Made by a program: the position numbers and the translations under genes. Under the pieces are notes generated by a model that was not told where the DNA came from, did no database searches, and worked only from the letters and a program-made list of their open reading frames with translations. From Psococerastis gibbosa (lineage: Eukaryota > Arthropoda > Insecta > Psocodea > Psocidae), in NCBI GenBank assembly GCA_963971405.1, contig OZ020489.1:11036001-11100000 (forward strand): a DNA stretch of 64,000 nt, in the 5' to 3' direction. Position 1 is the stretch's first letter; each line of letters opens with the position of its first letter. Of this stretch, positions 10,313-34,164 are shown piece after piece.

Positions 10313-10352
10313 TTAACTGACGCTACAAAGAAGGAGGTTGAAGGGTTGAAGT

Positions 10353-13823: not shown

Positions 13824-14356
13824 TAAACAACCTGATTCCTGGTAATTTTTAGAGGGATAGGCTAGTTGGCTTTTATTTTCCAAGTTTCTTTTCTAGTTAA
13901 TTGTATTCTTGGTTGATCTTCATTTTTAGGAGATGACATTAGTGTGCCCTCAACGAGCAGAGTGAGAAGCAGCTCACTTGGTAACGACGACTCAAGGGGG
14001 GGGGGGGGGGCACGTCTTTAACATAATCACTGGGAGTGAACCACCATTAGGGTACGCACTGTTTACATTTTGATATAAATAGAACAAAAATCCACTAATT
14101 TAGATGAATCCTGGCCTGTGAGGTCCTACCAAATTGATTGAAAAATAATTTCATGCCTGGACGCTGGAAAACACATGGTTCCTAGTCTGTCCAAAAACAC
14201 AAAACGCGACAAAATAAAAAAATGCTATTTTGTGCGTGTATATATTTTTCTTTCCTTACATTTTAATTACATTTTAAGACTCAAAATGTCTTTAACTGTA
14301 TGCTCACTGGAAAATAGTACGCAGTAGATATTTGCATAAAGCGCTTTCTTGACTAT

Positions 14357-14622
14357 CAGTGACGGCGCTACGGGGGTGCCCGAGGGGGCCTGGCCCACCC
14401 AAATGCTTCTCCGGCCCCTCCGGGGCCCCCAATTTTGAGATATTTTACATGTTGAATGTAGTTAAATTGCAGAATTATTTTAATTCAAAAACGTCCGGCA
14501 CAACTGGTAACAAGTTACATACTTCCATTACGGCATACCTACTAAAATGTTTTGTTTTTTCATTGGCTCCCCAGATAGAAGTCATGCCCCCTATGGCCTT
14601 AAAATTTGTAGCGCCGCTACTG
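14357..14622. mobile_element. hAT-type MITE (266 bp)
   Basis: Termini CAGTGACGGCGCTACGG and, from the right, CAGTAGCGGCGCTACAA are inverted repeats. The flanks TTGACTAT (14349-14356) and TTGACCAT (14623-14630) agree at 7 of 8 positions. G/C-rich inside, no transposase. The 111-residue open frame over it is not a gene. Confidence 0.8.
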
Positions 14623-15309
14623 TTGACCATGCGCACTTGCTGTGTAGACCAACCACTCATTTTTGTCAAGCCATCAGTAAGGCAGTGTCTCTGAAATTTT
14701 AATCTCCTTTTCGGACAGACTGGGAACTCGTAGGCCTACACATAGGCCATGTGTTTTCCAGCGTCCAAGAAATTATTTTTTAATTAATTTGGTATGACCT
14801 CAAAGGACAGACCAATAATCAAAATTAGCTGATTTTTGTTCTATTTATATTAAAATTAAACAGTACGTACTCTAACGGAGGTTCACTTCCAGCGATTTTG
14901 TCCAAGACGTGTCCTTCTGTGTCCTCGTTACCAAGCACCCGTTCCTTCCTATTCTTGCTGGTTGGGAGCGCACTAATGTCAACTTTTAAAAATATAGTCA
15001 ATAAAGATGTTTTATCAAACAAGAATACAATTAGCTAGAAAATAAACTTGGAACATCAAAGCAAACTATCCCTCAAAAAATTAGCGCAGCTGTAAATTCT
15101 TTCGAAGACTTTGTTGAATACTTTCAGCATTTTTCATTGCCAATTTGTAACGTATGAGTTATAAAGTGACAAGACAAGACTGGCCCATGAGGAACAATGA
15201 ACATCATGTTCAGAACTTCTAACATCAATTATAAAGCACGCGAAATGAAATGTAGAAAACTTGAATGTTACTTCTAGGCTTGCATATTTTGCATCATGAT
15301 GCATCGTCA
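14623..15309. other. No gene seen
   Basis: Intergenic sequence. Some words echo 13560-13680 and 14100-14170 in reverse (for example the AAAAATAATTTCATGCCTGG / CCAAGAAATTATTTTT pair). This suggests a large eroded inverted duplication around 14.4 kb. Confidence 0.35.
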
Positions 15310-16115
15310 GTGGCGTAGACAAGGGGAGGGGGGTCAGCGGAGCCCGGACCCCCCTCCCCCCAAATTTAGCAAAACAGAAAAATTTTCAGATATTTTAACC
15401 AAAAAAAAATCCCCGGTGAGACCCCGGTCCCCCTGTTTCCAGTTTTGTTAATAATGTTATCGTCTGATAAATCAAATTTTTTTTGCCAACAAACTATTTC
15501 AGGCCTATCTTTTAAAAAAACATTCCCCACGGTAGCCCCCGGGCCCACCTTGTTAGCTGTAATATTCTTCATATTATGTATTATTATTTCCCTATTTCGG
15601 CCTATTCTATTTCAAAATAATTCCCTCGGGGGAGACCCCCGCCCCCCTTTCTTCCAGTAGGTCTACTATTCTTCGGCTGTAAAACCTAAACGTTATTACA
15701 ATAGGTTACAAGACGTATATACATCAAAATGTGTAAAATTCCACATTTTCAGGCCTATTTTTTCAAAACCTTCCCCGAGAGAGACCCCCGGGCCCCCCTT
15801 CTGCCCCTGACCCCTCGGGTGGGGAAATTAAGATCATGCCCCTCAAGCACGTAGCCAGGATTTTATTTCGGTCGGGGCTAACTACCAGGGGGTCGAGGGG
15901 GTATGGAATACCCCTAGTAAAACGGTGGGTCCGCCCCCCCCCCCCCGGAAATTTGTAAGAATTGCAAAAACACACAGTTTTAGTGTTTTAGAGGGAGAAA
16001 AAATATGCAGGTGAAACATCAAACAGAACAACGCAAGGTTTTTCTCTTCTTTACAATTCGGGGGGGGGGGGGGGGGGAGGCTTCATTCGAACCATGCCAA
16101 TAAGAGCATAAGTAG
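15310..16115. mobile_element. Truncated hAT-type elements
   Basis: CAGTGGCGTAGACAAGG at 15310 begins a copy of the 4398-5041 family. Shared landmarks are CAGTTTTGTTAATAA..., GGGGGAGACCCCC and GGGGAAATTAAGATCATGCCCC. It is cut at about 15845, where another end-like sequence (CAAGCACGTAGCCAGG) starts a second fragment with long G-runs up to about 16080. Right termini were not found for either. Confidence 0.55.
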
Positions 16116-16149
16116 AGGATTTGGAGATTGCTGGTCTTATCGGGGCTTG

Positions 16150-16197
16150 TGTTCCAGCGGTTTAGGCGTAGATCGTGGGTTCAAATCCCGCCAAGTC
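16150..16197 (+). repeat. tRNA-like sequence (SINE head or tRNA remnant)
   Basis: TTCCAGCGGTTTAGGCG resembles a tRNA A box and GGGTTCAAATCCC is a good B box. They are only about 20 bases apart and no cloverleaf closes, so this is not a working tRNA. Confidence 0.5.
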
Positions 16198-16200
16198 CAG

Positions 16201-17242
16201 TTTTTTCCATATCCTCTAATTTCGGTTATAAAGATAAATTAATGTCAGTGTTATATATGCGATATAATACTTCAATGTATTAAAACTGACTTCAGAAACT
16301 ATATTTTGAATTTTTGATACCACTTTTAGACGATCAATCAGATGGATTCTGAGATTTTCGAGCCGCAAGTCCATACCATCATATTATACAGAATATGCAA
16401 CCAAGCCAGAAAGGACTTTCTCTGTTCTTAAACGCTTAAAAATTATCTTAGAAATTCTAATGGCCGGGAAAGATTATATGGTTTAGCAGTAATGACCGTG
16501 ACGGGCCAGGGCCGAAAGGGATTTTTATATAAGCCATACGAATGATATGGGCCCGTCTATAATGCCTATCGCAAACAATTATCGAAATTGACACAAAAGA
16601 CACTGTTGAGGACTTCAGGGGGATGGAATGAGAAAACTGTGTTCATTCGTTGTAAGTGACGGCCACATATCATTTTCAATTTCTTGTTAGGGGTTCAACT
16701 TTTTTGTTAACTACACCCTAAAACCGTGCTCGGATGTGAGCTCAGCGAGAAAAATATTTTAAATTAGACTTGGTTTTACGCCAAACCCATTAGCTCCAAA
16801 GACGTATTTCCAGGCGTTTCACCGGCGCATGAATCGTTTTTGTACACCAGACCTAGTTAAATACGAATGGTGCCTTGTTGTAATTGATTCGAATAATTTA
16901 AGCCCTACTGTACAAGACACACGTAATATTGGTCATTAGGATATAACGTTTTATTCTAATGACATTGGAGTAAACTTAAGTTTCTTACGTGAATCCTAAT
17001 ATGGAACGCCCACTATGGTCTTTACAAATGAAGTTTCCGCATCAGCATCAGCATTACTGCTAACCAACGACTCGTCGACCCTGCTCAGGAAGTGAGCCGC
17101 CTGGGAATAATCGAAAATCATATTTGTAACAGTCCTGGGTTAAGCTTGTTGAGGGGCAATCGGCATAGTACCGAAGTGCCACCCCCGGAAAAGTAGGAGC
17201 TCGAGGTGAGAATTGGAATAGTAGTTTTTCTCTTTTTTACAG
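16201..17242. other. No coding exon assigned
   Basis: Sequence upstream of the first assigned exon of the modular gene. ATGAGAAAACTGTGTTC... followed by GTAAGT at about 16631-16659 looks exon-like, but its phase does not fit exon 1, so it is not used. Confidence 0.35.
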
Positions 17243-17327
17243 GCGTGATGGTTAAGACGGAGGTTCAACGTCTGGAAGAGGCCGCCGAGTCCATGTTCAG
17301 GGGCGGTCCAGTTATGGGCAGGACGAG
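17243..17327 (+). CDS. Modular gene exon 1 (first coding exon, 85 bp)
   Basis: TTTTTTACAG acceptor and GACGAG/GTAGGT donor. The ATG at 17248 is the proposed start. The encoded peptide is charged (MVKTEVQRLEEAAES...), unlike the later Pro-rich exons. The exon leaves two bases (AG) that join the G of exon 2 into an Arg codon. Confidence 0.5.
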
Positions 17328-20183
17328 GTAGGTTAAAAAAGTATAATGGGGAAGTTGCTAACCCTTACTTGTGCAATGCAGTTCCAACCACAAAAAGTTC
17401 AATATAGTGAACTTAGACTTTTTATGTACTTTTCTAATCAAAATAGAACTCCTGCTAGTATGTAAACACAGGGAGAATCTGTCAGTTGCTGCTGCTTTTG
17501 TGGACAAATAATTTCTGATCACCATCAAATGGAATGGATCGTGCTTTAGATAGACTACGTCACATTTGGCACAGTCATTCAGTGACAACAACTGCCATTT
17601 TTTATAAGACTCAGAAGGATGGGAAACGTCATTTAAATGGGTGAGGACTGCAGCCTAACAAAATTTACAAAGCAAGCATGACGGGAAGAAGGAAAACCGT
17701 TGGGAGGAAGACTTAAAGCCAACCTCCGTGAGTTGGGAGTCCGTAGATGGTGGGACGTCCAACAAAACCGAGGTGGCTGGATGAGTGTTGTAGAGCAAGA
17801 AGAGGAACGAACAATTCACAAAAACTAAAAACTTATGTAAATTAAAACGGCCAAGATGAGCATTTCTTGTACATTGTGAACCTCATTTACGGCTCTTCTA
17901 TTAAAAATTGCGGAGAAATTAGATTTTTACACCAGTAATATTTTCCCCGTGCGATTTTCTCTTTCAGATATTGTTTGCAACTTAACACAGTTGTCAGGTA
18001 CCTACCTACTACCTACAGTTCCCCATATATTTAAAGAATGCTCCAATTACTCCATCTACCAAACCTTCCCTCCCAATACAAATTTCTATTTCAGCATACC
18101 CTTACATTTACATCTAGTTATTATAGCCGAAACAAATTCGCATTAAACACAAATATCGTATCAATACAAGCAATGGGAAACTGTGTTGGACGGTCCACTG
18201 CCCAATGTGCCCCCGACAGCAGTAGGTACTAAACCAAGGACCCAACTGCCAATTAAAACGTCTACACATAACAACTGGACTGAGTTGTGCGATAGAAATA
18301 TTTCAGCATTTTACACTCCATAACTGTGGCCAATCGGTGTCTAGGTGATAGCAACATGTACTATATATCAAAGTGTTGAGGAATATATTTTATAGTTGAT
18401 GACATTTTATTTACTGCTTAACGATCGATAATTAAAGAGAAATTCAACTTGGCGCAAAACTGGAATTTGAGTTGAATGTAAAAATTATGAAATTTAAAGG
18501 TTGATTTCAATGCGACCCCTGCTGTTACAAACGTTTATTAATTAATTGATAATAATGGATGTAATTATATTAAAAAAACATTATACGAGATTATATGTAT
18601 ACTATAAGATACGAGTAAACGATCTGTCAATTGCTCTTTTTTCCTTCAACAAAATTTGCTGAGATGTAGGTTGTGTTTTAGGCGTCCTACACCCTATTCA
18701 AGGGGGATAGCCCCACAATTGCCAACGCGCAGAAGAACATCGAGGCGGCCGCCCACCGCCATTCAGCCCACTTCGCCGCAGCCACAGCCGCAGCCGCCCT
18801 CGCCGCAGCCACCGACGTCCTCGCCGCAGCCACCGACCCCACTCACGCCAAAGCGGCCCAACAACAGCAGGGACTTTGGTCCAGCGGCCAAAAGGTAAGT
18901 GCAACAAAGTACATTTATATTTGCAGTCAGTGCCGGATTAACCCCTGGGGGGGCCGGGGCACAAGATAGGGGGGGGGGGGCGTGGCTGCAAACCAGAGGC
19001 GGAGGAGGGGGCCCCAGACAGAGGCGGTCCCAGACCTCATAAAAGGGGGAGGCACTTGTCAGTGGCGTAACGATAGGTTTTCGAAGGTGTGGTACAATTT
19101 GGTGCCTCTGTACCCATTTTCATAAAAGTTGCTCAGGAGACAGAGGACTGTAATATTGGGGTTTTCCACATTTTGAGAGCAAGAAAGCTTACCTACATAT
19201 TACAAAGAATCAATATAATTATGGACAAGGGGGGCGCGGGTGTCTCCCCCGGGAGAACATTTTTTGAAAAATAGGGCTGAAATGGTGAGGTTTTGCGCAT
19301 TTTGAGTGCTGTAACACTTAGATTTTAGAGGCAAAGAATATAACTGCCTTCCAAAGGGGGGAGGGGGGCGATAGCAGGTCGCTTCGTCAGCCTCTGGTGC
19401 AAGTTGCAGCCTCCTCTAAAATTCATAAATCTACCTACCAGCATTGCAGGAAAAAATAATAATAATACTATTTCCCGCCAATTTCAAAACTTTTAAATTC
19501 TAATTTTTTTATATTTTAATCTTAAAATATCTCATTCTGGGGGGGCCGGAATTTTAGGCATTTCTGGGGGGGGGGGCGGGGGCCTGTGCCCCAAGTGCCC
19601 ATGGGTTAATTCGGCACTGTTTACAGTTCGCAGAGACTTATCGTTTGATATTGACTGTAAGCACTTTAGAAAGATAGTCAGGGAGCCTCGTAGTTTCAGG
19701 CGAACACTATCTTTTTTATTCGAGCTGCCATGAAATTAATTAAATATGTTCATTGTTAATGTAGTGGGCCAGTGAAAATCGACATTACGGTGTATCTCTG
19801 ATTTTTTTAATGTGGGGTTAGTGTTTACCAAAGTTGCAACTCTCACAAATTTTGCACAACTAAATGTTCATTGTTCTCCCGGTGTTCTCTTCAATCGCCA
19901 TTTTAAAAAAAAATTGTTTTATTAGAAAACCAAAACTTTGATTGGGAAATCAACCTGTTTGGTTTTGTTAGGTACTCTATTTAACACTTTAACCTGAAGT
20001 TGGAAATCGTCGATAGAATGAAATTTTTGGAGCCATTTGTAAGAAATAACTTTTTTATAGTATATTTTAGGGAGATTCATCTACCTATTGAGATGGCGAC
20101 CAATGTTCGACTTTCGGAAAATTTCTTCACAAATTTTCATTTCATGACCCCCTGAGCCTAAAACCACCCTCCGTTCAAAATGT

Positions 20184-20214
<31 letters not shown>

Positions 20215-23200
20215 GTATATATATATGTATGTATAAACATATGTATATCGATTTTAGGAAACACTCCAAATTCCGTAAATATTATGCGATTTTGATGAAA
20301 CTTGGCACAGAAATTAATCGTACAAATTAAACAACGCGATCCACTATTTAGTTACAAGATGGCGGTCGATTGAAACCTTGTATAATTCATATCTAAGGTA
20401 ATATTGGTTACAGAAGAATGAATTAAAATCTGACTGAAAGTTCGTATTATTATCTACGATAATGGTAATAACCACTTTTTACGACAAATCAACCATTTTA
20501 AGATGGCATCCAGTCAAAGTGAAAATAATTTGATAAACAAAAATTTCATAGCCGGCATTGTGGTTCGAAATTTGGAACAAAAGAGTGTTTTGTGTGTTGA
20601 TGTTGTGGTCGGGACAATAATGAAGTATTTTCTATTTGTTATTACATGCATATAGCGTAGGCAGCGTAGAGGAAAAGCAAGGCCTGCGGAATCTCCCTAT
20701 TCCTGATCGGCCAGAGCCGAAAGGGATGTTTTAGGTTCTTGGAGGTAAAACGCTCCAAAATTGAGTACGATAGCCCAAATTAAAAAATGTTACCGAGGTA
20801 CGAATTTTGTGAACCTACGGGTCAAATTTTATTGAAAGCCACCGAGTAGTTTGCTCACAAACTGGCGAACAAACAGACAGACCGACGTTTTGTAAAAACC
20901 ACTTCTTTTGGTTCCTGGGACCCCAAAACCAGGAAATCCTTTGAAATCTCGGAATCAAAAATTTCAACCATCAAAAAGCTTTCTTTATATAACTAACCTA
21001 TAAATAGGAAAGCAAAAATTAACACTGTCAAAATGCAAAGTGGTCCAATATCAATGTCCCAGGGTAATACTTGACGTTAGAAAGCACAGATAAGAATGTC
21101 CCCCAGAAAAATTATTTTCGCTTTCCTATTTATACGTAGTACACACAGGTATGGAAAGTTTGTGATGGTGGAAAATTTTTTCAATTTCGAGATTTCAGTG
21201 GATTCACACGTTTTGAGGTCATAGTACCCCAAAAAAGTGGTTTTCAGTTTTGGCGGGTTTTAAATAGCCTACTTGGAAAAGTAAGCATCAATTTGAAATT
21301 TTGAAATAACGTGGAAACAGACAAGTGTCATCATTGCACATAAAACTTACTATTGAAGCAACCAGAAAAAATCAAAATGGAAATTTTTTCCCTGTTCAAC
21401 ATCCTTCATAGTTGAGTCTAAGAGAGGGCATTATAGCCCTCACTCCGCTAGGGTGGCTTAGTAATAGAACAAAAATCATTATTAATTAGTATTTATCAGT
21501 CACGGTATGGGTCTAGGCTAGTCTAACTTTAATCTGACTTTAGAATTCATATAGCTTTTTTTTCAATACACGTATGATATACCTGTATAGTATGTATGGA
21601 AGACAAGAGAATAAAGTGATTTTAGTGAATTTTAAATATTTGTTCCTTCAGATGGTCTCCCGCAGCAGCAGCGGCACCGGCATCGCCCGACTCTCGACCG
21701 TAACTGTACTTAACTTAACACTTCACAGAAGCAACAAAGTACTTTATTTACATCAACGAACAGTAAAATAAAAAAACTTCACCCACTTCAGTAATATGGT
21801 ATATAACTATTCTCATGCAAAGGCAAAATACGAAAGCACATATTATACAGGCTAACTGCTATCAGTTCTTGTATGAATATGAAAAGGAACAAATCTTAAT
21901 TTGTTTTTCCTTAAATAAATTTTACTGTCTGGCAATAACTTAATGATGAGTCTCTGAGATGCCTACAACCTTCCAAGTCAATGCAGTCCAGTGCCACCGA
22001 AGGTCAAGTGATGTAACAATTCATTGAGCTTTTTTTTCAATACAAGTATTCTAATGCGTGTGTATGTAAGGCAGAAACTCAAGCAATTTTAATACATTTA
22101 AAATTTTTGTTCTTTCCGATTATCATCAGCCAGCCCTTCGGCACTATCGCCGTATGTGTACTTAACTTAACACTCCACAGAAGTAACAAAGTAATTTATT
22201 CACATCAACGAACAGAAAAATAATGAAAATTCTCTCACTTCAGTAATAATGCGGTCTATAACTATTCTCATGCAAAGGCTAAATACGAAAGCATATATTT
22301 TACAGGTTCACTTCTATCTGTTCTTGTATGAATATGAAAAGGAACAAATCTTCATTTGTTTTTCCTGACACACATTTTACTGTCTGGCAATAACTTAGGT
22401 GCCATTCCACTGACCGGCTAGGGCTATTTCCAAAAACAGTGACATGGTAGCAGACATTCAAGACTTAGGTTGCGTTTCCACCGATCTCGCATTGCAGAAT
22501 GCAAATGACATTGACGGAAATTAGAATTTTTCTTTTTACAGAAATCTATTATAATGTTTGTACTTAACATATCCCATGACGCCATTTTTTAATTTTAGTT
22601 TGTTTGTTTGTGATTTTACTGTATGATCATTCATCAATTTTAACTATGGCATAGAGGAAAATAAACATTTCCGTCAATTCTGTCAATGCGAGGTCGGTGG
22701 AAACCCCGCCTAAGTCTTGAATGTCTGCTACCACGTCATCGTTTTTGTAAATAGCCCTAGCCGGTCGATGGAATGGGCGCCTTAATAATGAGTCTCTGAG
22801 ATGCCCACAACCTTCCAAGTCAACGCAGACCCGTGCCACCAAAGATGTTTGGAAGAATGGTTGCCCTTTACCTTGCCAGTAGTCGACGAAATTTCTTCTC
22901 TTCCAAACGTCTGTCTGCCAAGTGACTATTTTGATTTGAAGAAATTCGGCATAAAAGAATATGGGGTGATGTACGGAATCTGACATTGTAATCACTTGTG
23001 CGCTGTTTTATTTCAGGCCCGCTCTGTCTCCCGGGACGCTGTACGCGAGGAGCTTACCAGCGGCCTTGCCAGCAGGAGTCCCATCGGGGTCCGGGCTGCA
23101 GCCCCAACCAAGGGAACCCCCACCGGGTTCAAAGAATCTACTGTAAGTACTGTGACATTTTCTATGCAACTTAGTTTACCTAGAGTTTTATATAGGCGAG

Positions 23201-26200
23201 ATGGGACATTCGCTTGCCGCGTCACCTATACAAACATCCATTTCTTGACGTTACCTACCGGTTGCTCCCTGTTTTTTTGGCGTGAGTGAATGTCCCGCAT
23301 TCATCTACACTGAGCTTAGACTTTCAAATATTTATTCCAGCGAAGGAATATAAATTAACATATAAATGTGTAATAAGATGGAATTAAATTATCAACGTGA
23401 AAATTGCAATTTTTATGACAATTCTTTTGTTGCGATCAGTTTAGTTTTGCTGACGGTACCGACGACCGGATTCAGTTGATCTTCAATATTGCCATTAATA
23501 CTTAACTTCTAAGCGTTGCTATAAAGACTCCGAGATACAGATTAGAAGACTGCCTTGTGCCTCTGAATACTTGTGCCGTTGTTTGTAAGTTCATGCCAGG
23601 ATTTTGATGCCTGATCATCTGTGAAAACCTTTTGTAATTATATTATTTGCCTGTAATAATTCGGTTATTTTCACTGTCTTAGTATCTGGTATGACTATGT
23701 CGACTACGAGGAAAGGATCCTGCCCCCCGAGCCGTCCACACCGCCCGCGCCGTCCACACCGCCCACGCCGGCCACAGCGCCCACGCCGGCCACAGCGCCC
23801 ACGCCAACTTGTAAGCGGCCATTTGAGGGGCCGGACGGCGGCCCGACCGAGAAGCGGTAAGTGCAGTATTTTTTCTTCTTATGGTGCACAACCACTAGGG
23901 GTTGGTTTGCAGCAGCATGCTCCGGATCCTCCATTCCGTTCTGTCCTCGGCCAGCCTCTTTAGGTCCCTGTACGTCGTGCAGTTGAAATCTCTGAGCAGC
24001 TGGTCCAAGTACTCAGCACGCGGGCGGCCTATCGCGACATAACCATACATATGCCCTTCCAAGATTGTGTGAAGTAATCCATCGTGGCGTAACGTGTGAC
24101 CGATCCAATTGGCTCTCCGCTTAGCAATAGATGCCCCAATTTTTCTCTCTTCCCCTATGCGTTGCAGTACTTCCTCATTGGTTACCCGGTCCATCCACGT
24201 AATGTTTAACATTTTCCTATAGCACCACACTTCGAAGGCTTCAATTTGGCTCCGCATAGTTTCCGCTATGGTCCATGTTTCGCACCCATACATCATTATA
24301 CTCCACACAAGAGACTTGAGGAGAGATTTTCTTGTGTCAAGGGTTATATTTCCAGACTGAAATATCTTTATCTTCTTATTCAATGCCAATCTCCCCAGGA
24401 ATATCCGATTCTTTATTTCCTTGTTGCTTCGCCCATCTTCCGTTACTATTCCTCCCAGATACGTGAATTCATTCACTTGTTCAATTCTTACGTTATCAAG
24501 GGTTACATCTATTCTACCGGGAGGTCTCTTGCCAACAGCCATTACCTTCGTTTTGGATTTGTTTATTTTCATATTGTATTCCTCCAGTATCCTGGCTAGC
24601 TGGTTGAGTGCCTCGTTCAACTCTTCAGGGCTATCCGCGAGCATGGCAATATCGTCTGCATACCTTATTGATAGTATCTTGACACCCTGTATCCTTATTC
24701 CCGATACCTCTTCAAGGGCTTCATTTAGTTCATCAATGGCTTTTTGTATGTAACAATTGAACAAGGGTGGGGATACTGAGCAACCCTGCCGGACTCCTTG
24801 CCTTATTCTTGCCTCCGCCTTACTGTCAGCAAGTACGACAACAGCCAACTCATCTCGGTACAGGTTCCATAGAAGCCTTCTATCCTTGAGTGCAGTATAA
24901 TAGGCTATAATGCTTACAATTCGTTTGATATTGACTGTAAGTAGTTTGTAAATCAAGCCAGGCAGCCGCGTGGTTGCACGAGGAGACGCTAAATCTGACA
25001 AACCCTACGTAGTGTTGGGATCGAGTGAACCCTGGGCCCTGATTAGACTAAGCCTAAGCCTAATTGGAACTGCAGCCTGATCATGGCGATTATAATAACG
25101 GTAATTATTTAATCCCCTGGTATTAAAAATGTAAACAATATAATTTTATAATGGAAAGTGTTATTCAAAATTTGGTTATTTAAATTTTTAATATAATTAT
25201 AATATTTAAATAAATACTGGTATTATAATCGCCATGATCAGGCAGCTGGTCAACTGTCTTCGAAATACCAGAATTTTTAAAGTAGACCATTTTCTGCAAA
25301 ACGTGAAATTTTTATTTCAAATCTTTATATAGACCTAAATTGTGGCTAAACATACGGGTCGAATGTATGCTCTGGAAGTTGCAGGCAATTCAATTCAGTG
25401 GGAACTGTAGGTCTCGTACGTAGGCTTATAGTAGGCTAGTTCTTTAACAATCACAAAAGAATTGAATTTTTTGCCAAATGTTCAGAAACCTATTCTCCTT
25501 TCTTTTTTTGTTGGTGTGGTGTGGTAATGGAACAAAGGGCAAGCAATAATTTAAAAGAAAACAAAAAAAAAACGGTGAAATACAGTCCGATAATTTGGCA
25601 GTTTTTCATGGGCTACACTTTTAGCCGCACTTCGTTATTTTTCCTGATTACTTTCAACAATTATTGGGAGACAAACTGAGTTCAAAACATGATTAATTGG
25701 ACACAATACCCCCCCCCCCTCCCCCCAGTCATTAGAGTCCCATAATTTGAGTTGGTTTGCCCATTGAAAGCTTATAAATAAATATATATAAATGTTGACT
25801 CTTTTGTTCTATTTCTCACCTATTAATTTATTTTGACCATCGCAAAAGCTTTCTTAATACTAATCATAGGAAAGCAAACATTAACACTGTCAACATGCAA
25901 AGTGGTCCAACAACAATGTCCCAGGGTCAACAACAAATTCATCAGAAAAATGGTTTTTGGTTTCCTATTTTAATACGTACCATAAGGAAAGTTCTGTGAT
26001 GGTGTAAAATTTTCAATTTTGAGATTTCAGTGGATTCACATGTTTTGAGGTCATATAGGAACACAAGAAAGTGGTTTTCAGTTTTGGAGGGTTTTAAATG
26101 GTACCTGGAAAAGTAAGCATCAACAAAGTCTTTGAAAAGACGTCAAAGCTGGCATGTGTCATCTTTGCCCCCAAAATTTAGCAAAACAGCAAATTTTTCA

Positions 26201-29200
26201 GATATTTAAATGTAAAAAAAATTCTGCGGGGAGACGCCGGCCTCCCTGTTTCCAGTTTTGTTAATAAATTTATCGCCTGCAAAATCAAAATTTTTGGGCG
26301 GCAAACTATTTTAGGCCTATCTTTTACAAATCATTCCCGGCGGTAGTTCCCGGGCCCCCTTTTTAGCTGTTATATTCTTCACATGTAATATGATCAAAAA
26401 TGTTTTCAAAGTGCGTAAATTCCACTACTTTGGGCCTATTCTCTTTCAAAAATGTTTCCCCGGGGGAGTATTTTTTATTTTATTTTATTTTTTTTCTTAC
26501 AAAAAGATAAATCGCATACAACAAGATCTATACTATTCTTTGGCTGTAAAACCAAAACAGTATTACAATAGGTTACGAGACGTATATACATGAAAATGTG
26601 TAAAACTCCACAATTTCAGGCCTATTTTTTCCCAAGAACCTTTCCCAGGGGAGACCACCGGGCCCCCCTCCGGCCCCTAGAAATTTAGATCATGCCATTA
26701 ATTAGGAGATGCGTACATCCATGAGAACGGCTTTCCTCGTTTTCTTCTATTTTTTCAAAAATACGGGGGGGGGGGGGGCAAATGAAACACCACTCGATTC
26801 GATATCGTGTTGCATGAAAACTGGACCCCCCCCCCAAAAAAAAAAAAAATCTGGCTCCGCCGCTAATAATAATAATTGTGTATTGACCAGAACTTTGACA
26901 ACTACAATAGACATTTAAGATAAAATAAATAAATTTCCGATAGTACATCATTGACGGCAATGAGCGTAAGCCCATATAACCCAAAAATGTACCCTATGTC
27001 CAGATTGTGTTAGTAGCCTGCGTGCTAAGCAATCGCTTCAATTCTTCAATTATGTTCATATGTCTTGAGATTACGCTGTGAAGTCGTACCTATGTACGGT
27101 ATACCTCACCACAACAAATGTGAGTTTCAAGTTTCAAGCTGCCACTTTGAAAAGACGTAGAAGCTGGCAAGTGTCATTTTTGCCCGTAAAAGTTATAGGC
27201 TACTTTTGAAACTGTTTGAAGTGATGTAAAGCAGGCAATGCGCATAATATAACACACAGTATGTATGGAAGAAAAGATGATCAAGTGATTTTAAATGAAT
27301 TTTAAAGTTTTGTTCCTTCAGATGGTCACCCGCAGCAGCAGCGGCACCTGCATCGGACTCTCAACCGTAAATGTGCTTAACTTAACACTTCATAGAAGCA
27401 CAAAGTAATTTATTTACATCAACGAACAGAAAAATAAAGAAAATGTCGGAACTGTAGTAGTGGGGAGGGAGTAGTGGTACAGACTCCGACTTTCATCCGA
27501 AAAGTTGTTGGTTTGAGTCACACACTTGATGCATTTTTGGCCATGTTTCGGAGGGCATGTAAAGCAGGCAATACACATATAAATGCAGTATGTATGAAAG
27601 AAAAGAAAATCATGTGATTTTAATGAATTTTAAATTTTTGTTCCTTCAGGTTGACACCAGCGACAAATACACCCCCAGCCGACTTACCGTAAGTGTAATT
27701 AACTTAACACTCCTCTGAAGCAACAGTTATTTATTCACTTCAAAGAAAATTCACTCACTTCAGTAATATGGTCAAAAGTAGGGCTCTAAATAGCTTTTAG
27801 GGTAGGAAAAATTGTCCAAGTGGAAATTGAACACCTTTGGTAGGTACCTATCACCGGTACCTTTCATTAAACCCCGCCATGTGCAAGACGAGTGGACAAG
27901 CGAACCAGTTATGATCCACTTGTTTGAAATAAATAAAATCATTTGAGAAAGACAATGTATGCATAATATGCAGTACCTAAGTTACTAATTTACAACAAGG
28001 TACGGTATATCTTCGTCCTCATTGGCGCAATTGTGAAATGCGAGGATATTTGTTAGATTTAGAGGGCATGACAAAACGGGGCTATACAGTAGTTTTAATC
28101 CATTTGTTCAATTGTTGTTCCAGATCTGACGGGAGGCCGATGGAAATCAGCCCGGAGACCTGGGCCGTTTGGTTGTGGTGGGGTGCCATCTCCGTAATGG
28201 TCCCCACCGTGCGCCCCCCCCTACCCGACCGCCAATATCCCGCAGTTGCGGAACCGTAAGTGTCACCAACTTTATTAAAAGGACCTCTTTCGCATAGGAA
28301 ATTTTGTTGTTATGTTGTTAAATGTTGGGCAAGTTTTTAGACGTTCGGAGATGCATTCCAGATCCATTGAGCTATCAAAAATCAGATACCAAGGTATCAT
28401 TTATATTCAACAATATAATGATACAATAGTAACTCTTTGTACCATATGCGGTTATTTCTATACTTTGGGAATGGGAATATCGTGACAGCTCATAATTCTT
28501 GTATGAATTTGAATATGAGCAAATCTTATCATTTATTTTTCCTGAAACGCATTTCACTGTCTGGCAGCAACTTTATAGGTAATGATTCTCCAAGATACCT
28601 ACAAACCTTGCAGGTCAACGCCGCGCCGCGCCACCGAATATGCGTGGACCGAACGTTTGCAAGTGACGTAACCCTTTTCTTTAGCCAGTACTGCACAAAA
28701 TGTCTTCTCTTCGAAACGCCTGCCTGTTAAGTGACTATTTCGATTTGAAGAAATTCGGCATAAAAGACTATGGGGGGGGGGAAGGTGGTGTACCGAATCG
28801 GACATTGTGACCACTTATCCGTTGTTTGTATTTCAGGCCCTTGCTGCCCCCAGTCGAGGAGGAGGAGGAGGAGGAGGAGGAAGGGTAAGTGCTGTGAAAT
28901 ATTGTGTGGAACTTATAGTTTTCCTTGAGTTCTATAAAGGAGAGATGAGACAAATCCCCTGCGAAAAACCATTTGTTGAAGTTACCTACATTTTTGGCGT
29001 GAGCGAAGGCCCCATCTATCCTATATTGAACTTACACATTGAATACAGTATTTATTCGTGCGAAATTAAGAAATATAAATTAAAATATTTATATTTATAA
29101 ATTTGCAATAAGGGGGAATTAACCATCAACGTGAAAATTGAAATTTTTATAAAAATTCTTCTGTTGCGATGGCCAGCCGTGATTAGCTTTGCTGACGGGA

Positions 29201-30289
29201 CGGGATTCAGTTGATCTCTTATTATTATTATTATTATTATTTAACTTCTAAACTTTGCTGTGAAGTCTCCGTGATACAGTCTTAGAAGTCTCGGAATATA
29301 AGTTTGTAAGGTCACGCCCAGATTCTGCTGCTTAATTATCTGACTCCGGCCTTTGCAATTACATTGTGCGCCTGTAATAATTCTGCTATTTTCACTCTTT
29401 TAGCCTGCACCAGCAGCAACCACACCAGCAGCAACCACACCAGCAGCAACCACACCAGCAGCAACCACATCAGCAGCAACAACCTGAGAGCGACAGCGAA
29501 AGCGACAGCGAAAGCGACCCTCCCCCGTCCCCGTCCCCCGACCCTAGGAGGCGACGGCGCACGGAGCTTCAGCTCCTAACGGACAATGGAGATTGGCTGT
29601 GGTGGGAGGGTTTAGACACCCTCCCAGCAGTCAGGGTAAGGCGCGCCCCAAGCCGCTACGGTCTGTAAATTTTTTTTTTTTTTTTTTAGGATGTTTCTGA
29701 ATGAATCAATATTGCCATTGGTACCCTGGCTTTTTTTCCAATTTTGTTATAATCACATTTAAAAAAAACCTTCATTAGGCCTAATAATATAATATAAGCA
29801 TTACTTATCCATGCGTGTACGGGTTACCCACAAACTTAAAAATTCTTTAAAAAGCAATTCAATTAAAATAAAGAATAAAACATTCAAAAGTGATGGTTGG
29901 CAATGAGTTGGTATCACGCTGTTATGGTATCATGCCTACTACTATAGTAGGCCTATAACGGGAAAAAAATGGGGCCTGTATAGTTAGCCTGAAAGATGTT
30001 TTAACCCATAAAAAGTGGTCTATTATAAATCAATTTTAACTGTTTTTTTAACTTTTAAGAATATTTTAATTTTGTATGTTTTTAATATTATTTTGTTCTT
30101 TACACAGCCCAGCACAGCTACTGTAGTAAGTCTGAAAAACAATTTTAACTTTTGAAAATTTTATCACTTATTACTACATTTAATTTGATGATAGCAACTG
30201 ATGCTGGATTCATTTTATTTTAGCATGGTCGTTTTTCGCAGCTTGATTACCCTACCTCTTTTCTCCTGAAAGTGGCATTTTTTTGGTAG
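17248..30289 (+). CDS. Predicted 13-exon gene for a Pro/Ala/Gln/Glu-rich modular protein, unknown function
   Basis: Thirteen segments with AG acceptors and GT donors (mostly GTAAGT) join into one frame of 412 codons from an ATG at 17248 to TAG at 30287-30289. Internal exons from exon 2 to exon 10 are all multiples of three and split codons after the second base. Exons are GC-rich against AT-rich introns. The predicted product has no recognised domain and no signal peptide. It has a charged start (residues about 1-27), long Pro/Ala/Ser/Thr tracts, a Glu run, His-Gln-Gln-Gln-Pro repeats, an Asp/Ser/Glu acidic patch followed by five Arg, and three Trp/Tyr-rich patches. Exon cassettes 6/7 and 11/12 lie in clearly duplicated introns. 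The true start could lie in an unseen upstream exon. The function is unknown. Confidence 0.6.
17590..17826 (+). pseudogene. Retrotransposon RT tail remnant
   Basis: A plus-strand frame reads about RWEEDLKANLRELGVRRW and then a WMSVVEQ segment. This matches the C-terminal tail typical of some non-LTR retrotransposon polymerases (W-x-D-D-L-x-x-x-L-R-E-L-G). It is flanked by an in-frame stop and is intronic in the modular gene model. Confidence 0.45.
18682..18894 (+). CDS. Modular gene exon 2 (213 bp, Pro/Gln-rich)
   Basis: TTGTGTTTTAG acceptor and CCAAAAG/GTAAGT donor. The frame is fixed by exon 1. It encodes an Arg-rich start and then Gln-Pro and Ser-Pro repeats (PQPQPQPPSPQPP), closing with KRPNNSRDFGPAAK. 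The KRP...K(R) close is shared with exon 6, so the two are probably paralogous exons. Confidence 0.65.
18928..19619. mobile_element. hAT-type element (692 bp) in intron 2
   Basis: CAGTGCCGGATTAACC at the left pairs with GGGTTAATTCGGCACTG at the right. TTTGCAGT (18920-18927) and TTTACAGT (19620-19627) form an 8-bp duplication with one change. A second hAT-like end, CAGTGGCGTAACG, at 19060 suggests a nested insertion. G-runs occur at both ends. Confidence 0.82.
19636..19715 (+). repeat. Short repeat shared with the edge of the RT at 24.9 kb
   Basis: CGTTTGATATTGACTGTAAG and the following CAGG-x-AGCC-CGT-GTTTCA-GCGA words recur at 24918-24990, where they form the start of the RT-bearing block. 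Its identity is unknown. Confidence 0.5.
19915..21010 (-). repeat. CAGA-core repeat copy interrupted by other sequence
   Basis: Left part (about 19915-20080) and right part (about 20740-21010, with AACAAACAGACAGACCGACG) belong to one reverse-oriented copy. The interruption contains a TA/TG microsatellite (about 20184-20232) and a segment resembling other dispersed repeats (GATTTTGATGAAACTTGGCACA). A small forward fragment follows at 21115-21245. Confidence 0.6.
20184..20232. repeat. (TA)n/(TATG)n microsatellite
   Basis: An uninterrupted run of alternating T and A, then ATGTATATGTATAT units. Confidence 0.9.
21408..21500 (+). repeat. SINE family A, 3' part
   Basis: Begins at about TAGTTGAGTCTAAGAGAGGGC. 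Includes CCCTCACTCCGCTAGGGTGG and the AGTAATAGAACAAAAA tail. Confidence 0.65.
21652..21699 (+). CDS. Modular gene exon 3 (48 bp, C-type cassette)
   Basis: TGTTCCTTCAG acceptor and GACC/GTAACT donor. Encodes a Trp-Ser-Pro start, then an Ala run and PASPDSR. The flanks (TATGTATGGAAGACAAGA... before, ...ACTTAACTTAACACTTCAC after) recur around exons 4, 8 and 9. Confidence 0.6.
22134..22151 (+). CDS. Modular gene exon 4 (18-bp micro-exon, C-type cassette)
   Basis: The second AG of CATCAGCCAG is used as acceptor and GTATGT as donor. It encodes six residues (P-S-A-L-S-P) and keeps the frame. Using the first AG would give 22 bp and break the frame. Surrounding intron sequence is the duplicated C-type module, but the exon is shorter and diverged. 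Confidence 0.4.
22398..22781. mobile_element. Harbinger-type MITE (384 bp) with a second inner pair of termini
   Basis: Outer ends GGTGCCATTCCACTGACCGG and CCGGTCGATGGAATGGGCGCC are flanked by TTA (22395-22397 and 22782-22784). Each arm contains an inner terminus-like sequence (TTAGGTTGCGTTTCCACCGA and TCGGTGGAAACCCCGCCTAA). Each arm also has the shared 17-mer near TGTCTGCTACCACGTCA. A half copy lies at 55205-55415. Confidence 0.8.
23017..23142 (+). CDS. Modular gene exon 5 (126 bp, D-type cassette)
   Basis: TTTTATTTCAG acceptor and CTACT/GTAAGT donor. The frame given by the previous exons is open and reads Leu/Pro/Gly-rich sequence ending QPQPREPPPGSKNL. The upstream intron (TTGAAGAAATTCGGCATAAAAGA...) is nearly repeated before exon 11, but the exons share only their first dozen bases. 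Confidence 0.6.
23683..23856 (+). CDS. Modular gene exon 6 (174 bp, Pro/Thr/Ala-rich)
   Basis: CACTGTCTTAG acceptor and GAAGCG/GTAAGT donor. Begins with an aromatic/acidic patch (IWYDYVDYEERILPP), then Pro-Thr/Ala repeats, and closes with CKRPFEGPDGGPTEK. Its upstream intron is clearly related to that of exon 12 (CTGACGG...GGATTCAGTTGATCT, GCCTGTAATAATTC). A 76-residue minus-strand frame here is a shadow. Confidence 0.62.
23895..25001 (-). pseudogene. Non-LTR retrotransposon reverse transcriptase, 5'-truncated
   Basis: A 368-codon open frame on the minus strand. Family landmarks run in order: IRQGVRQGCSVSPPLFNCYI, then the catalytic SIRYADDIAMLAD box, NKSKTKVMAVG, FTYLGGIVTEDG, and the thumb and tail segments LLKSLVWSIMMYGCETWT and EAFEVWCYRKMLNITWMDRV. 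The N-terminal endonuclease and first RT motifs are missing. Residues before about 45 look foreign. The tail matches the fragment at 59331-59783. It lies in the intron of the plus-strand modular gene, 38 bp after exon 6. The RT core is unbroken, so the insertion is probably fairly recent. Confidence 0.88.
25076..25242. mobile_element. Fold-back element with 22-bp perfect arms
   Basis: CCTGATCATGGCGATTATAATA at 25076-25097 is exactly reverse-complemented at 25221-25242. The loop is very AT-rich. It sits at the 5' edge of the RT-bearing block. Superfamily unknown. Confidence 0.7.
25243..26159. other. Intron sequence, repeat fragments only
   Basis: Contains a C-run near 25710 and fragments related to 21000-21400 (for example CAACATGCAAAGTGGTCCAAC and GTTTTGGAGGGTTTTAAAT). 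No exon of the modular gene was found here. Confidence 0.4.
26160..26870. mobile_element. Degraded hAT-type element (4398-5041 family)
   Basis: Shares TTTAGCAAAACAGCAAATTT, CCAGTTTTGTTAATAA, GGGCCTATTCTCTTTC and TTTAGATCATGCC with the 4398 copy. It ends near CTGGCTCCGCCGCT, a worn terminus. The left end is missing. Confidence 0.6.
26871..27321. other. Intron sequence with C-type module flank
   Basis: From about 27240 the sequence (TATGTATGGAAGAAAAGATG...) repeats the upstream flank of exons 3, 4 and 9. The rest is unremarkable. Confidence 0.4.
27322..27366 (+). CDS. Modular gene exon 8 in position order (45 bp, C-type cassette)
   Basis: TGTTCCTTCAG acceptor and CAACC/GTAAAT donor. Almost a copy of exon 3: same Trp-Ser-Pro-Ala-rich peptide with one codon fewer and DSQ for PDSR. 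It is the seventh exon of the joined model; I number it 8 because a decayed exon between 23.9 and 27.3 kb is possible. Confidence 0.6.
27458..27575 (+). repeat. SINE family A, 5' part
   Basis: Best preserved head of the family: AGTGGTACAGACTCCGACTT, ATCCGAAAAGTTGTTGG, TTTGAGTCACACACTTG, then TGTTTCGGAGGGCATGTAAA. The promoter boxes are recognisable. Confidence 0.65.
27650..27688 (+). CDS. Modular gene exon 9 (39 bp, C-type cassette)
   Basis: TGTTCCTTCAG acceptor and TTACC/GTAAGT donor. Encodes LTPATNTPPADL. Flanking intron sequence is almost that of exon 8, while the exon itself has changed in sequence and length but kept a multiple of three and the same phase. Confidence 0.6.
28124..28255 (+). 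CDS. Modular gene exon 10 (132 bp, Trp-rich)
   Basis: TTGTTGTTCCAG acceptor and GAACC/GTAAGT donor. Encodes SDGRPMEISPE, then the Trp-rich patch TWAVWLWWGAISVMV, then a Pro-rich close (RPPLPDRQYPAVAE). The patch is reminiscent of DWLWWEGL in exon 12. Confidence 0.62.
28837..28884 (+). CDS. Modular gene exon 11 (48 bp, poly-Glu, D-type cassette)
   Basis: TTTGTATTTCAG acceptor and GAAGG/GTAAGT donor. Encodes PLLPPV followed by nine Glu from a GAG repeat. The acceptor side (ACATTGTGACCACTT...TTTCAGGCCC) is homologous to exon 5, but the rest of the exon is unrelated, which suggests replacement by triplet expansion. Confidence 0.6.
29404..29635 (+). CDS. Modular gene exon 12 (232 bp, Gln/His/Pro and acidic-basic)
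   Basis: CACTCTTTTAG acceptor and GTCAGG/GTAAGG donor. The inherited frame reads five HQQQP-type repeats, then PESDSESDSESDPPP, five consecutive Arg, and GDWLWWEGLDTLPAVR. Another open frame (SSNHTSSNHT...) also spans the repeat, but only the first connects in phase on both sides. Confidence 0.62.
30108..30125 (+). CDS. Modular gene exon 13 (18-bp micro-exon)
   Basis: TTCTTTACACAG acceptor and GTA/GTAAGT donor. Encodes PSTATV in phase 0 on both sides. It fits exon 12 (phase 0 end) and the last exon. Confidence 0.45.
30224..30289 (+). CDS. Modular gene last coding exon
   Basis: TTTATTTTAG acceptor, then an open frame of 21 codons (HGRFSQLDYPTSFLLKVAFFW) to TAG. It closes the model with the total length divisible by three. 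No nearby poly(A) signal was picked out, so the 3' end is uncertain. Confidence 0.4.
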   Translation, partial: HGRFSQLDYPTSFLLKVAFFW

Positions 30290-30989
30290 AAGGACCTCGA
30301 AGCATCCAGATTGGTAGGAAACATGACATGGGAATACCTGCAGATCCTACAACACGCCTTGCACAGTGTATGTTGTGTGTGTTGCATGCACATATGATGT
30401 GTCTGACCTGCATTACATGCCGCCGTTGAGGAAGTAGCAGCTTTGGAAGCAACGCTGCCATTCTCGGTTTGCTATATCTTGGCGCCCAGAGCTAATGTAC
30501 GAGTATGTATTGATGATAAGGCTCGATAGCGTCAGTAGCTACTTGACTTATCGGTTGCTGCTGCGTACACCCTGCGATGTATGCCAGATAAGGTCTTCTT
30601 CATACGGGGCTGAGGAGATCTTCTAACGTGTTTTTCTGAAGATTGCTTTGCAAAATGAACAACAGCTAGCCTATAAGTCCTTCAAAGCTAGTTTAACTTC
30701 AGTTTGGCATACGGCTGGGTAATTGGAGTGGATTATTGGAATAACCCAGTCAAGTGTAGAGTTGTATAACGAACCAACGATCGTAGCTGAGCACAATCAA
30801 TGCATACATTTTGGATGGACGGTTCACCTAGAGAACTCCAGACAGATGAGCGATGAAGGTTTGCAGCCCTGGCATGACCTACCATATTCATTTAGTAACT
30901 TGGTTAGTTCTTCTTCAGGTATGTAACAACGTGTTAGGTCTTCTGCCATTCTTTGCATCCCTCCTTTTCATCAATAACTCCATTTCCCA
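30290..30989. other. No gene seen
   Basis: Presumed 3' UTR and intergenic sequence. Nothing identifiable. Confidence 0.35.
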
Positions 30990-31200
30990 ATACTTTGTCC
31001 AATCCATCTTCCCATGGCAATCCATGCACTTTTGAAGCTTCTTTCTCCCTCTAGCCTACGCTCTACACGCTACAGCACTTCATCATTGGTGAGCCCAGCA
31101 ATCCCCGGGATTTTTAACATTTTAATGTACCACCGCATGGCCAACGCTTCTCTCTCGACCACCAAGTATCATACTTTCCGAGTTGCAAGTGCAATGTTTC
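30990..31200 (-). pseudogene. Non-LTR RT tail fragment
   Basis: The minus strand reads AMRWYIKMLKIPGIAGLTND, matching the E-A-F-E-x-W-x-Y-R-x-M-L-K-I-x-W...V-T-N-E-E-V segment of the RT at 23895-25001. Stops and frame breaks surround it. Confidence 0.6.
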
Positions 31201-31715
31201 TTGGTTTTAATATCATCTTTATTTTTTTTTCTTCCTCTTCCCTCTTTGTGCCGCGTGCACAGCGTGAGGGGGTCGTCCCGGACCCATTTCTTAAATTATA
31301 CCCGGTCAGTAACCAACGTGTTGTACTTATATCTTCTTCCTGTTACTTCTCCTGTCCAGTGTTATCAGCAATCCTCACAGAAACTTAACTTCATCCACAT
31401 GTTCTATATGCATCTTTAGTTAGCATTTGTAACCAAGGTGTTAAATTAACGTGGCATGGTCATGCTAAGACTACTGGATGTGGAAGCCAAAGTGGACGCA
31501 CTTCAGAAGAGCCCAGACTTTGACTTCCTCAGGCAGTTGGGAGAGTCTATAGGGCTAGGTGAAGTGACTGTGAAATTGATAATTGACCAAGATGGAAAAC
31601 ATCGTGAAGTGCTTATGCTTACAATAGGTCTTTGGTGAAGTGAAATTATGATTTGATGAAGGCAGGAAGAAAGAAGAGGATATTTTTTCGACATTGTGAT
31701 GTAGTTGGACCCTAA
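31201..31715. other. No gene assigned
   Basis: A 60-codon plus frame at 31456-31638 (MVMLRLLDVEAKVDALQKSP...) is unassigned and has no supporting splice sites or relatives in the window. Confidence 0.3.
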
Positions 31716-31790
31716 GTGAAGTGAAGTGAAGTGAAGTGAAGTGAAGTGAAGTGAAGTGAAGTGAAGTGAAGTGAAGTGAAGTGAAGTGAA
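31716..31790. repeat. (GTGAA)15 microsatellite
   Basis: Fifteen uninterrupted GTGAA units. A minus-strand frame of LHFTS repeats is only its translation. Confidence 0.97.
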
Positions 31791-32707
31791 GTGGGGACGC
31801 TTCCCAGCTGCCTCAGGTGATATTTTACTGCTATTGAAGCATGGCTCTTTCCCAACAGCAGCGCCCACGGAACCTTCTTAATTCAGAGTTCCTACTAACC
31901 TCCTCTGTGTGAGGTGCCCTTTAGATGTGTTCTGAACACCAAAGTTTGCTTTTCTTGGACTCAGCTACCATTATTGCTCCGCTATACAACTCTTACACCA
32001 AACTGTTAGTTCCTATCGCCGCTTTATTGCCCATTGGCTATATATAGACACTGGCCAGTTCACTGGCGTTTAGGCGAATTACAATATGAAACTACAGGAA
32101 CTCACCGCATTCCATGAACTGAATTTCAACCCAAGCGATTAAGTCATTGCTTGAGATCGAAGACGAATTGTCCGATAACCATGTGAATACATTGTCATTC
32201 ATGTAGTTGTCTTATAGATTCATCACAGATACCAAGGAGTGGCATAACGTTTGAAGAGCTTGTACGCTGCAGGAGTTCAGGGTGCGAAGATTCCTTTTCT
32301 AAAAACACGTTTTAAGAATTCTACTCGGCGCCTTAGGAAGTTGATCTGCAACTGGTGCAGATGGGGGGGTGTAATGCACGAATGCCGCCGATGAATTAAG
32401 TCGTTACTGAGCTGAATCTTATCATTAATAGTATAGTAGCTTGTACGGGATCTAAGATTCAGCACGTTGAGAATGAAGAGCGCAGTTTTTAAAGCTGGTG
32501 CATCCTCAGGCAGCATGCACTGCAGGTTAGACACAGAGTATGTGCTACAACATATATAGCATGAACCGTGCATGGCATGATGTGGGATCAGTAAGGATTT
32601 CCCAGTTATGTTTCCCACCAACCTAAATGTTTTAAGGTCCCGATATTAAGAAATGCTGCTTTCCTAAGGAGGAAAGATTAGGCTTCAATCAAGCTGCTCT
32701 TTAAATA
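31791..32707. other. No gene assigned
   Basis: A 114-codon minus frame at 32277-32621 shows no family motif and is probably chance. Confidence 0.35.
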
Positions 32708-33577
32708 AAAACCCATTAGTGTCCTGAATTATTTTGGTATTTCCATTTTAATGTTTACGCCGATTTTACAGTTTTTAAACGGTTTTTACATTTCTCGAGA
32801 ATTAGGTAGCGACCAATGGCCACATGCATGAAAACCCATTAGTGTCCTGAATTATTTTAGTATTACCATTTTATTGTTTACGCCGATTTTACAGTTTTTA
32901 AACGGTTCTTACATTTCTCGAGAATTAGGTAGCGACCAATGGCCACATGCATGAAAACCCATTAGTGTCCTGAATTATTTTAGTATTTCCATTTTAATGT
33001 TTACGCCGATTTTACAGTGTTTAAACGGTTTTTACATTTCTCGAGAATTAGGTAGCGACCAATGGCCACATGCATGAAAACCCATTAGTGTCCTGAATTA
33101 TTTTAGTATTTCCATTTTAATGTTTACGCCGATTTTACAGTGTTTAAACGGTTTTTACATTTCTCGAGAATTAGCTAGGTAGCGACCAATGGCCACATGC
33201 ATGAAAACCCATTAGTGTCCTGAATTATTTTAGTATTTCCATTTTAATGTTTACGCCGATTTTACAGTTTTTAAACGGTTTTTACATTTCTCGAGAATTA
33301 GGTAGTGACCAATGGCCACATGCATGAAAACCCATTAGTGTCCTGAATTATTTTAGTATTTCCATTTTAATGTTTACGCCGATTTTACAGTTTTTAAACG
33401 GTTTTTACATTTCTCGAGAATTAGGTAGCGACCAATGGCCACATGCATGAAAACCCATTAGTGTCCTGAATTATTTTAGTATTTCCATTTTAATGTTTAC
33501 GGCGGTTTTACAGATTTAAAACGGTTTTTAAATTTCTCGAGAACTAGGCGGTCGCTGCGGCGACCACTGGCCACATG
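32708..33577. repeat. Tandem array, seven copies of a 123-bp unit
   Basis: Units begin at the AACCCATTAGTGTCCTG word, with spacing 123, 123, 123, 127, 123, 123. Unit landmarks are TTTACGCCGATTTTACAG, TTTCTCGAGAATTAGG and GACCAATGGCCACATGCATG. The 127-bp unit has an extra GCTA at 33174-33177. The last unit is the most diverged and ends the array. No ORF persists across units. Confidence 0.97.
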
Positions 33578-34164
33578 CCCCAAGCCATATACGAGGATGG
33601 TCTGACAAGTTTCCATTATGATTTACTAGAGAAGAGATGTGCGAGAGAAAATTCCAAAGTCGAAACTCCAGTGTGAAACAGATGAGGAGCAAACTTTCAA
33701 AATGTCACAAATCCAAGAAATTTAAAAATTGATTTAATCATCAATTTCCCATCTTGAAGAAGAGTTGCATCTGGGTTGCTAATCAAAACAAACAAAATCA
33801 AAAAAATCCCCGAAATGAAAACTTGAGAATTAAATAAATCTAGTTCGGTAGCATGAATATACTTTTCTCAGTAAATTATAGGCTAATCTATACTGCTGTT
33901 AAAATCGTACAACCTCACTATTTCGGACTATTTGGAGCAATATGACTATGCATTCCTTTGCAAACTTTCCTGCTGTAAGCCCCACGTTTTGCATTTCAAA
34001 TTTTCAAATTTTTGGATGCCATATTATTTTTATGAATTGAAGCATTCTTTTCTAAGCTTTGTAAAATCCACCCCTTACAGCTGTTAAAATAAAACCACAA
34101 ACCACCGTAAAGCCACACTATTTTGCACTTATATTTTCAAATTATGTTAAATTCAATATTATTG
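33578..34164. other. No gene seen
   Basis: AT-rich sequence. The first lines after the array (CCATATACGAGGATGGTCTGACAAG) look like the start of a mariner-type copy but were not confirmed. Confidence 0.3.

Follow-up and report, generated by a model that had tools for sequence, protein, structure and literature searches.

The stretch considered here, called the window below, is a 64,000-nucleotide segment of the genome of the insect Psococerastis gibbosa (assembly GCA_963971405.1, contig OZ020489.1, here C14, positions 11036001-11100000), and the genome searched with it amounts to 409 Mb. The window carries a predicted intron-containing gene belonging to an undescribed family, which appears to have multiplied, introns included, through large dispersed duplications of DNA. 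The new observation made on this family concerns the distribution of divergence among its members: conserved protein blocks are kept while the silent sites of the coding exons are near saturation and exceed the divergence of introns and flanks several times. All comparisons were made between copies of a single genome, and the splice junctions are those predicted from the sequence.

The predicted gene looks real and is modeled as 11 exons and 395 codons (Table 1). An earlier note on this DNA had joined 13 segments with consensus splice sites into one frame of 412 codons. The AG/GT borders of these segments and the single open frame obtained upon joining them were confirmed, and the last two exons of that model were rejected. 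The frame of exon 11 passes the supposed donor at 29635 and stays open to the TAA at 29666-29668, hence the revised count of exons and codons. Three diverged copies (L035, L037 and L038) display homologous C-termini with the shared tail RR(T/S)EL.LL..W.WW...R.RR.P.R and terminate at the position of the window gene's stop. The supposed exon 13 (30224-30288) also overlaps a repeat that starts at about 30238 and is found elsewhere too. The note had further claimed that the internal exons are all multiples of three with one codon split, and this holds for all nine of them (exons 2 to 10). The split falls after the second codon base in every case, since the ATG at 17248 leaves exon 1 with 80 coding nucleotides. 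Nine such lengths with one split are expected by chance with a probability of (1/3)^9, approximately 5e-5, before correction for splice-site choice. The GC content of the exons is 56-71%, against 23-58% in their 100-nucleotide flanks.

Table 1. Coordinates (window numbering) of the predicted exons and of other features of the gene and its surroundings.
Feature	Position	Strand	Description
Exon 1	17243..17327	+	Coding from ATG 17248: MVKTEVQRLEEAAESMFRGGPVMGRT; L033 has a homologous exon with its ATG at equal offset
Exon 2	18682..18894	+	213 nt; RRPTPYSRG...Pro-rich...KRPNNSRDFGPAAKR; homologous exon of L033 is 183 nt
Exon 3	21652..21699	+	C-type, 48 nt; counterpart in L038 is a relic without donor
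Exon 4	22134..22151	+	C-type, 18 nt; doubtful, ancestral acceptor lost
Intron segment	22786..23016	+	Homologous to 28580-28836
Exon 5	23017..23142	+	126 nt; core SPGTLYARSLPAALPAGVPSGSGLQ kept in four subfamilies
Intron 5	23143..23682	+	Homologous to intron 10 (28885-29403)
Exon 6	23683..23856	+	174 nt; Pro-Thr repeats, ending in KRPFEGPDGGPTEKR; homologue in L038
Exon 7	27322..27366	+	C-type, 45 nt
Exon 8	27650..27688	+	C-type, 39 nt
Exon 9	28124..28255	+	132 nt
Exon 10	28837..28884	+	48 nt; poly-Glu; partner of exon 5, shortened
Exon 11	29404..29668	+	Terminal; Gln-rich, then RRRRTELQLLTDNGDWLWWEG...RRAPSRYGL; stop 29666-29668
3' flank	30038..32801	.	Noncoding yardstick; 78.7% identical over 2925 columns to the L032-type copy
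Young retrotransposon in intron 6	23870..24889	-	Reverse transcriptase open reading frame 23895-25001; Pfam RVT_1, 3.1e-20

Exon 4 deserves particular caution. Its acceptor position reads CCG, against CAG in three sister exons (family D2), and the 18-nucleotide form requires a cryptic AG; the exon may thus be dead, the acceptor of its sisters having been lost in this copy. The predicted protein contains one Cys in 395 residues. As reported in the earlier note, no signal peptide was seen upon inspection by eye, the N-termini MVKTEVQRLEEAAES and MARKNEAQRLQEAAAS being devoid of a hydrophobic core, and searches of Pfam and PDB with the 412-codon version of the protein returned nothing above the cut-off. 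The putative product could be a nuclear regulatory protein, rich in Pro, Gln and acidic residues and probably disordered, with KR-rich motifs and the conserved RR(T/S)ELxLL..W.WW tail.

The family is well represented in the genome. A query of 361 bases around exon 5 produced 61 matches, some of which are two pieces of one copy, and a protein search with exon 5 of L037 identified 29 places on nine contigs, which we grouped ourselves into 17 L032-type, 4 window-type and 8 others. None of the 29 places contains a stop within the matched part of exon 5, some matches being partial exons. The L032 subfamily comprises 16 full-length intron-containing copies (L032 included) that are 95-100% identical and are located on contigs C1, C2, C3, C12, C13, C14, C15, C19 and C56. 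Most copies have the flanks of the L032-type copy in common within the 18.5 kb read: the whole 4 kb of its right flank is present in at least 13 other copies, and the leftmost 3 kb of its left flank in at least 11. No mobile-element ends were found, the L032-type unit exceeding the 18.5 kb read. The window copy has close partners on C14 (at 9.45 and 12.82 Mb) and on C1 (at 43.57 Mb). Apart from gaps, the partner on C1 is collinear to positions 1-17200 and 33600-55213 of the window at 86-98% identity, so the copies travel on large duplications.

Comparison of the copies within this genome indicates that the gene is protein-coding, because exon lengths stay multiples of three, indels are in frame and protein blocks are kept across four subfamilies. 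In the other copies, the live internal exons that were read vary in length, always by multiples of three: besides exon 2 of L033 (Table 1), lengths of 39, 114 and 171 nucleotides were found in L032, 171 in L037, 144, 252 and 39 in L038, and 45, 45 and 90 in L039, while exon 5 measures 171, 174 or 189 nucleotides in 13 copies. The exon indels separating the window gene from L039 are of 6, 3, 42 and 57 nucleotides.

Within the window gene, the introns flanking exons 5/10 and 6/11 align right up to the junctions whereas the exons themselves do not. The earlier note had recognized this pattern under a different numbering (5/11 and 6/12) and had extended it to the four C-type exons (3, 4, 7 and 8). 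The introns flanking the latter do align up to the junctions; exons 3 and 7, however, also align well, unlike the pairs 5/10 and 6/11. The proposed cassette duplication is supported by the related L032-type gene, which has seven exons: the window gene looks like an L032-type gene in which the internal block was duplicated. The accompanying proposal that coding sequence diverges faster than introns also gained support, and can be refined as follows.

Over 221 codons compared between the window and L032-type genes, the proportion of silent differences (pS) is 0.80 and that of replacement differences (pN) 0.32, and in the same pair identity in the intron preceding exon 11 reaches 75-80%. As pN is below pS and the protein blocks are conserved in four subfamilies, divergence is strongest at silent sites. 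Between subfamilies, the divergence (K) at fourfold degenerate sites and in noncoding DNA is respectively 2.41 and 0.28 for window-L035, 1.43 and 0.25 for L035-L037, 1.00 and 0.15 for window-L038, 1.21 and 0.29 for L035-L038, 1.13 and 0.49 for L037-L038, and 0.90 and 0.43 for window-L037. Codon usage at identical residues was counted with Met, Trp, Gln and Glu left out. The same codon is employed at 27 of the 96 residues identical in L035 and the window, for a random expectation of 27.7, and at 30 of 79 in L035 and L037 (exons 5 and 11). In the exon 5 core, L035 and L037 are identical at all 22 residues and use equal codons at 4 of them. Fourfold sites were also compared in conserved blocks picked by hand, leaving out Met and Trp; the same base is found at 13/47 sites for window-L035, 13/27 for window-L037, 13/33 for L035-L037, 19/36 for window-L038, 9/26 for L035-L038 and 10/25 for L037-L038. 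An artefact of low-complexity alignment was considered and rejected, as the excess persists in these blocks and in the exon 5 core.

The contrast is also visible along the gene. Identity between the window and L032-type copies falls from 0.86 ahead of the ATG to 0.66 in exon 1 and returns to 0.80 at the start of intron 1. At the other end, identity after the stop compared with that of the last 120-150 coding bases, which are also held by protein constraint, is 0.86 against 0.80 for window-L038, 0.79 against 0.66 for L035-L037, 0.72 against 0.60 for window-L035 and 0.73 against 0.57 for L035-L038. Exon features and noncoding distances group the copies alike, as (window, L038) and (L035, L037). 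The noncoding DNA used as a yardstick is nothing special in kind and includes the 3' flank shared by both subfamilies (Table 1) and a dispersed repeat (window 20777-21357, 80% identical to L032), related copies of which occur elsewhere in the window.

A weaker indication of the same silent excess comes from inside the L032-type subfamily, where exons 9 and 5 were sampled in 13 of the 17 copies; columns with fewer than 11 of the 13 letters were dropped and L036 was left out of the pairwise means. In these copies 6 of the 75 silent sites have changed, with 8 silent changes in all, and 6 replacement changes were also counted, whereas the 785 noncoding sites carry 20 changes (Fisher p of 0.0017 by changes and of 0.020 by sites). 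The silent changes correspond to approximately 3-4 times the intron rate. Two of the silent sites are triallelic, and transversions account for 6 of the 8 silent changes and 11 of the 20 noncoding ones.

The reading we favor, tentatively and with a confidence slightly short of even, is that the GC-rich coding exons receive mutations at a high rate, which purifying selection subsequently filters. Mutation in the coding exons would be about 3-8 times as frequent as in the surrounding DNA, from which their GC content sets them apart, and in-frame repeat slippage would add to the exon change. Purifying selection on the protein would remove most amino-acid changes, so that silent sites would saturate first. 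Two bolder readings, which even taken together are rather doubtful, would produce this pattern. In the first, a germline process would target mutation to the coding exons of the family and spare the introns and the region after the stop, and the turnover of silent sites would be several-fold that of neutral DNA under a preserved protein. In the second, the codons of a self-amplifying gene family would be naturally recoded on a large scale to escape homology-dependent silencing. The ratio of replacement to silent divergence (dN/dS) may accordingly mislead in families whose silent sites evolve above the intron rate.

A number of observations weigh against this reading. We know of no mechanism by which mutation would be restricted to coding sequence. 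The contrast between silent sites and noncoding DNA was measured in copies of this family only, and the ratio of the two K values is no more than about 2-4 in three of the six subfamily pairs. Little difference is seen between the region after the stop and the last coding bases in window-L037 (0.67 and 0.65) and L037-L038 (0.66 and 0.64). Two exons, with 6 changed silent sites between them, make up the test inside the L032-type subfamily. Exon 8 lies outside the fetched stretch, and in the L032-L036 pair all four changes of exon 8 alter amino acids. Between the window and L039, which are 2% diverged, exons and noncoding DNA evolve at equal rates (10/469 and 39/1967). Some copies are damaged as well: among six further copies in which the last exon was read, frame-breaking indels occur in L032 and L036 and the stop is missing in L039, the exon being open in L035, L037 and L038; in L038, the C-type exon survives as a relic whose donor was lost. 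Finally, a silent rate higher in exons than in introns is stated in a cancer-genome paper, and ascribed there to methylation in another setting (PMC5678748); some of the excess may therefore be nothing unusual. In contrast to that methylation-linked effect, the observed/expected CpG values are similar here in exons (0.82) and introns (0.76) and six of the eight silent changes are transversions, which makes CpG or methylation hypermutability an unlikely main cause.

The main rival explanation is concerted evolution, in which the exons would be old and of ordinary rate while gene conversion homogenizes introns and flanks, its tracts halting where the exons differ. Similarity does drop sharply at the exon borders in the 5/10 and 6/11 alignment, and on the donor side of 15 pairs compared without gaps identity is 0.20-0.75 over the last 40 exon bases and 0.68-0.92 over the first 25 intron bases; on the acceptor side of these pairs, indels give rise to a mixed picture (0.35-0.93). 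Conversion partners are numerous, and a precedent exists in that conversion homogenizing noncoding DNA is discussed for the Hessian fly salivary genes (Chen et al. 2010, PMC2955719). The proteins encoded by exon 5 of L035 and L037 are nearly identical, so little should bar conversion there, and yet 18 of the 22 core codons differ. That exon features and noncoding distances group the copies alike, and that the silent excess is also present inside a subfamily that is 95-100% identical, is equally difficult to accommodate. Noncoding identity between subfamilies is moreover 64-86%, which is low for efficient conversion, and we regard concerted evolution as fairly unlikely. Selection for silent nucleotide change, for instance in order to escape small RNAs from sister copies, would account for subfamilies that resemble versions recoded for resistance to RNA interference: exon 5 of L035 and L037 retains its protein under mostly different codons, codon sharing between L035 and the window is at the random level and the family is multi-copy. 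Codon sharing is nevertheless significantly below random in none of the six pairs, so active avoidance is unsupported, and the region after the stop, presumably the 3' untranslated region, is not hyper-divergent in most pairs; selection of this type is judged unlikely.

Strong constraint on introns and flanks, with the silent sites of exons reflecting the true neutral rate, would predict the silent-versus-intron contrast equally well. It is highly improbable, given that the conserved DNA includes the dispersed repeat at 20777-21357 and several kb of 3' flank and that the copies display large differences in length. The view expressed in the earlier note, that of a secreted and adaptively evolving effector or immune-type cassette gene, draws on the cassette exons of a single phase and on exons that differ more than introns, and could also invoke the L032-L036 pair, in which exons 8 and 9, as we read the alignment, carry 8 changes, 6 of them replacements. 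A pN of 0.32 for a pS of 0.80, blocks conserved in four subfamilies, a single Cys in the entire protein and a signal peptide that was not seen by eye all argue against it, and this view is now very unlikely.

Several other elements were noted in the window. The retrotransposon of intron 6 has copies elsewhere in the genome that are 98-100% identical. A foldback element with 93-nucleotide arms (22402-22776) is present in several copies nearby. Downstream of the gene, a 123-bp tandem array (32708-33548) comprises about 7 units, a single matching unit being seen in the L032-type copy, and an abundant dispersed repeat (34159-35011) is 98-99% identical at more than 30 places among the matches listed. 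A mitochondrial-type insert (47425-52245) matches the small contig C68 at 97% identity and contains open reading frames which we take to be pieces of COI, COII and ATP6. As it is missing from the duplicates around C1:43603527-43604076 and C14:12849064-12849600, it is probably a recent insertion. The segment 55212-64000 is a duplication mosaic shared with C14:10.98, C14:14.63 and C14:15.47 Mb and with C21:2.52 and 2.53 Mb at 95-98% identity; it covers a cadherin exon and an open reading frame presumably corresponding to mRpS10.

Related patterns are known from other systems. In the phospholipase A2 isozyme genes of snake venom, introns are more conserved than synonymous sites, and the products are secreted enzymes under strong protein diversification. 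In the bicycle genes of aphids, numerous small internal exons of a single phase begin with codon position 2; a signal peptide and a CYC motif are encoded by many, some homologues being without the motif (PMC9168663). The window gene resembles them in the high number, small size and uniform phase of its internal exons. Its exons 2-11 begin at codon position 3, however, no CYC motif is present (one Cys in the protein) and no signal peptide was seen by eye; since exon phase and motif differ, it is not considered a bicycle gene. The KQY/KHI genes of the pea aphid display cassette-like small exons and a conserved secretory signal cassette, 33 of the 37 exons of KQY1a being of 15 bp or smaller (PMC7495047). 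Small cassette-like exons are common to both systems, whereas the secretory cassette and the exons of 15 bp or less do not occur here. In the SSSGP salivary genes of the Hessian fly, noncoding DNA including introns is conserved between paralogues whose coding sequences have diverged; one family is described with 35 introns, the signal peptide is conserved, dN/dS is above 1 and the dS values of Table 2 of that paper are 0-0.20 (PMC2955719). The present family resembles these genes in that noncoding DNA is more conserved than coding DNA, and differs from them by its silent sites near saturation, by a dN below dS and by a signal peptide that was not seen. Conotoxin genes have introns conserved within a superfamily and a mature-peptide exon with raised Ds and Dn (Table 5 of PMC3862624), for which error-prone polymerases or synthesis were proposed and in which trinucleotide indels occur; these genes encode secreted toxins composed of a signal, a pro and a mature region, and their Dn is of the same order as Ds. 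In contrast, protein blocks are conserved here and the signal/pro/mature layout was not recognized by eye. A raised silent rate in exons associated with conserved introns is nevertheless common to both, the effect being weaker inside one subfamily of the present family and absent in window-L039. The approximately 29 places of graded divergence available in one genome would make the puzzle posed by the conotoxin and salivary genes testable, with less confounding from adaptive protein change.

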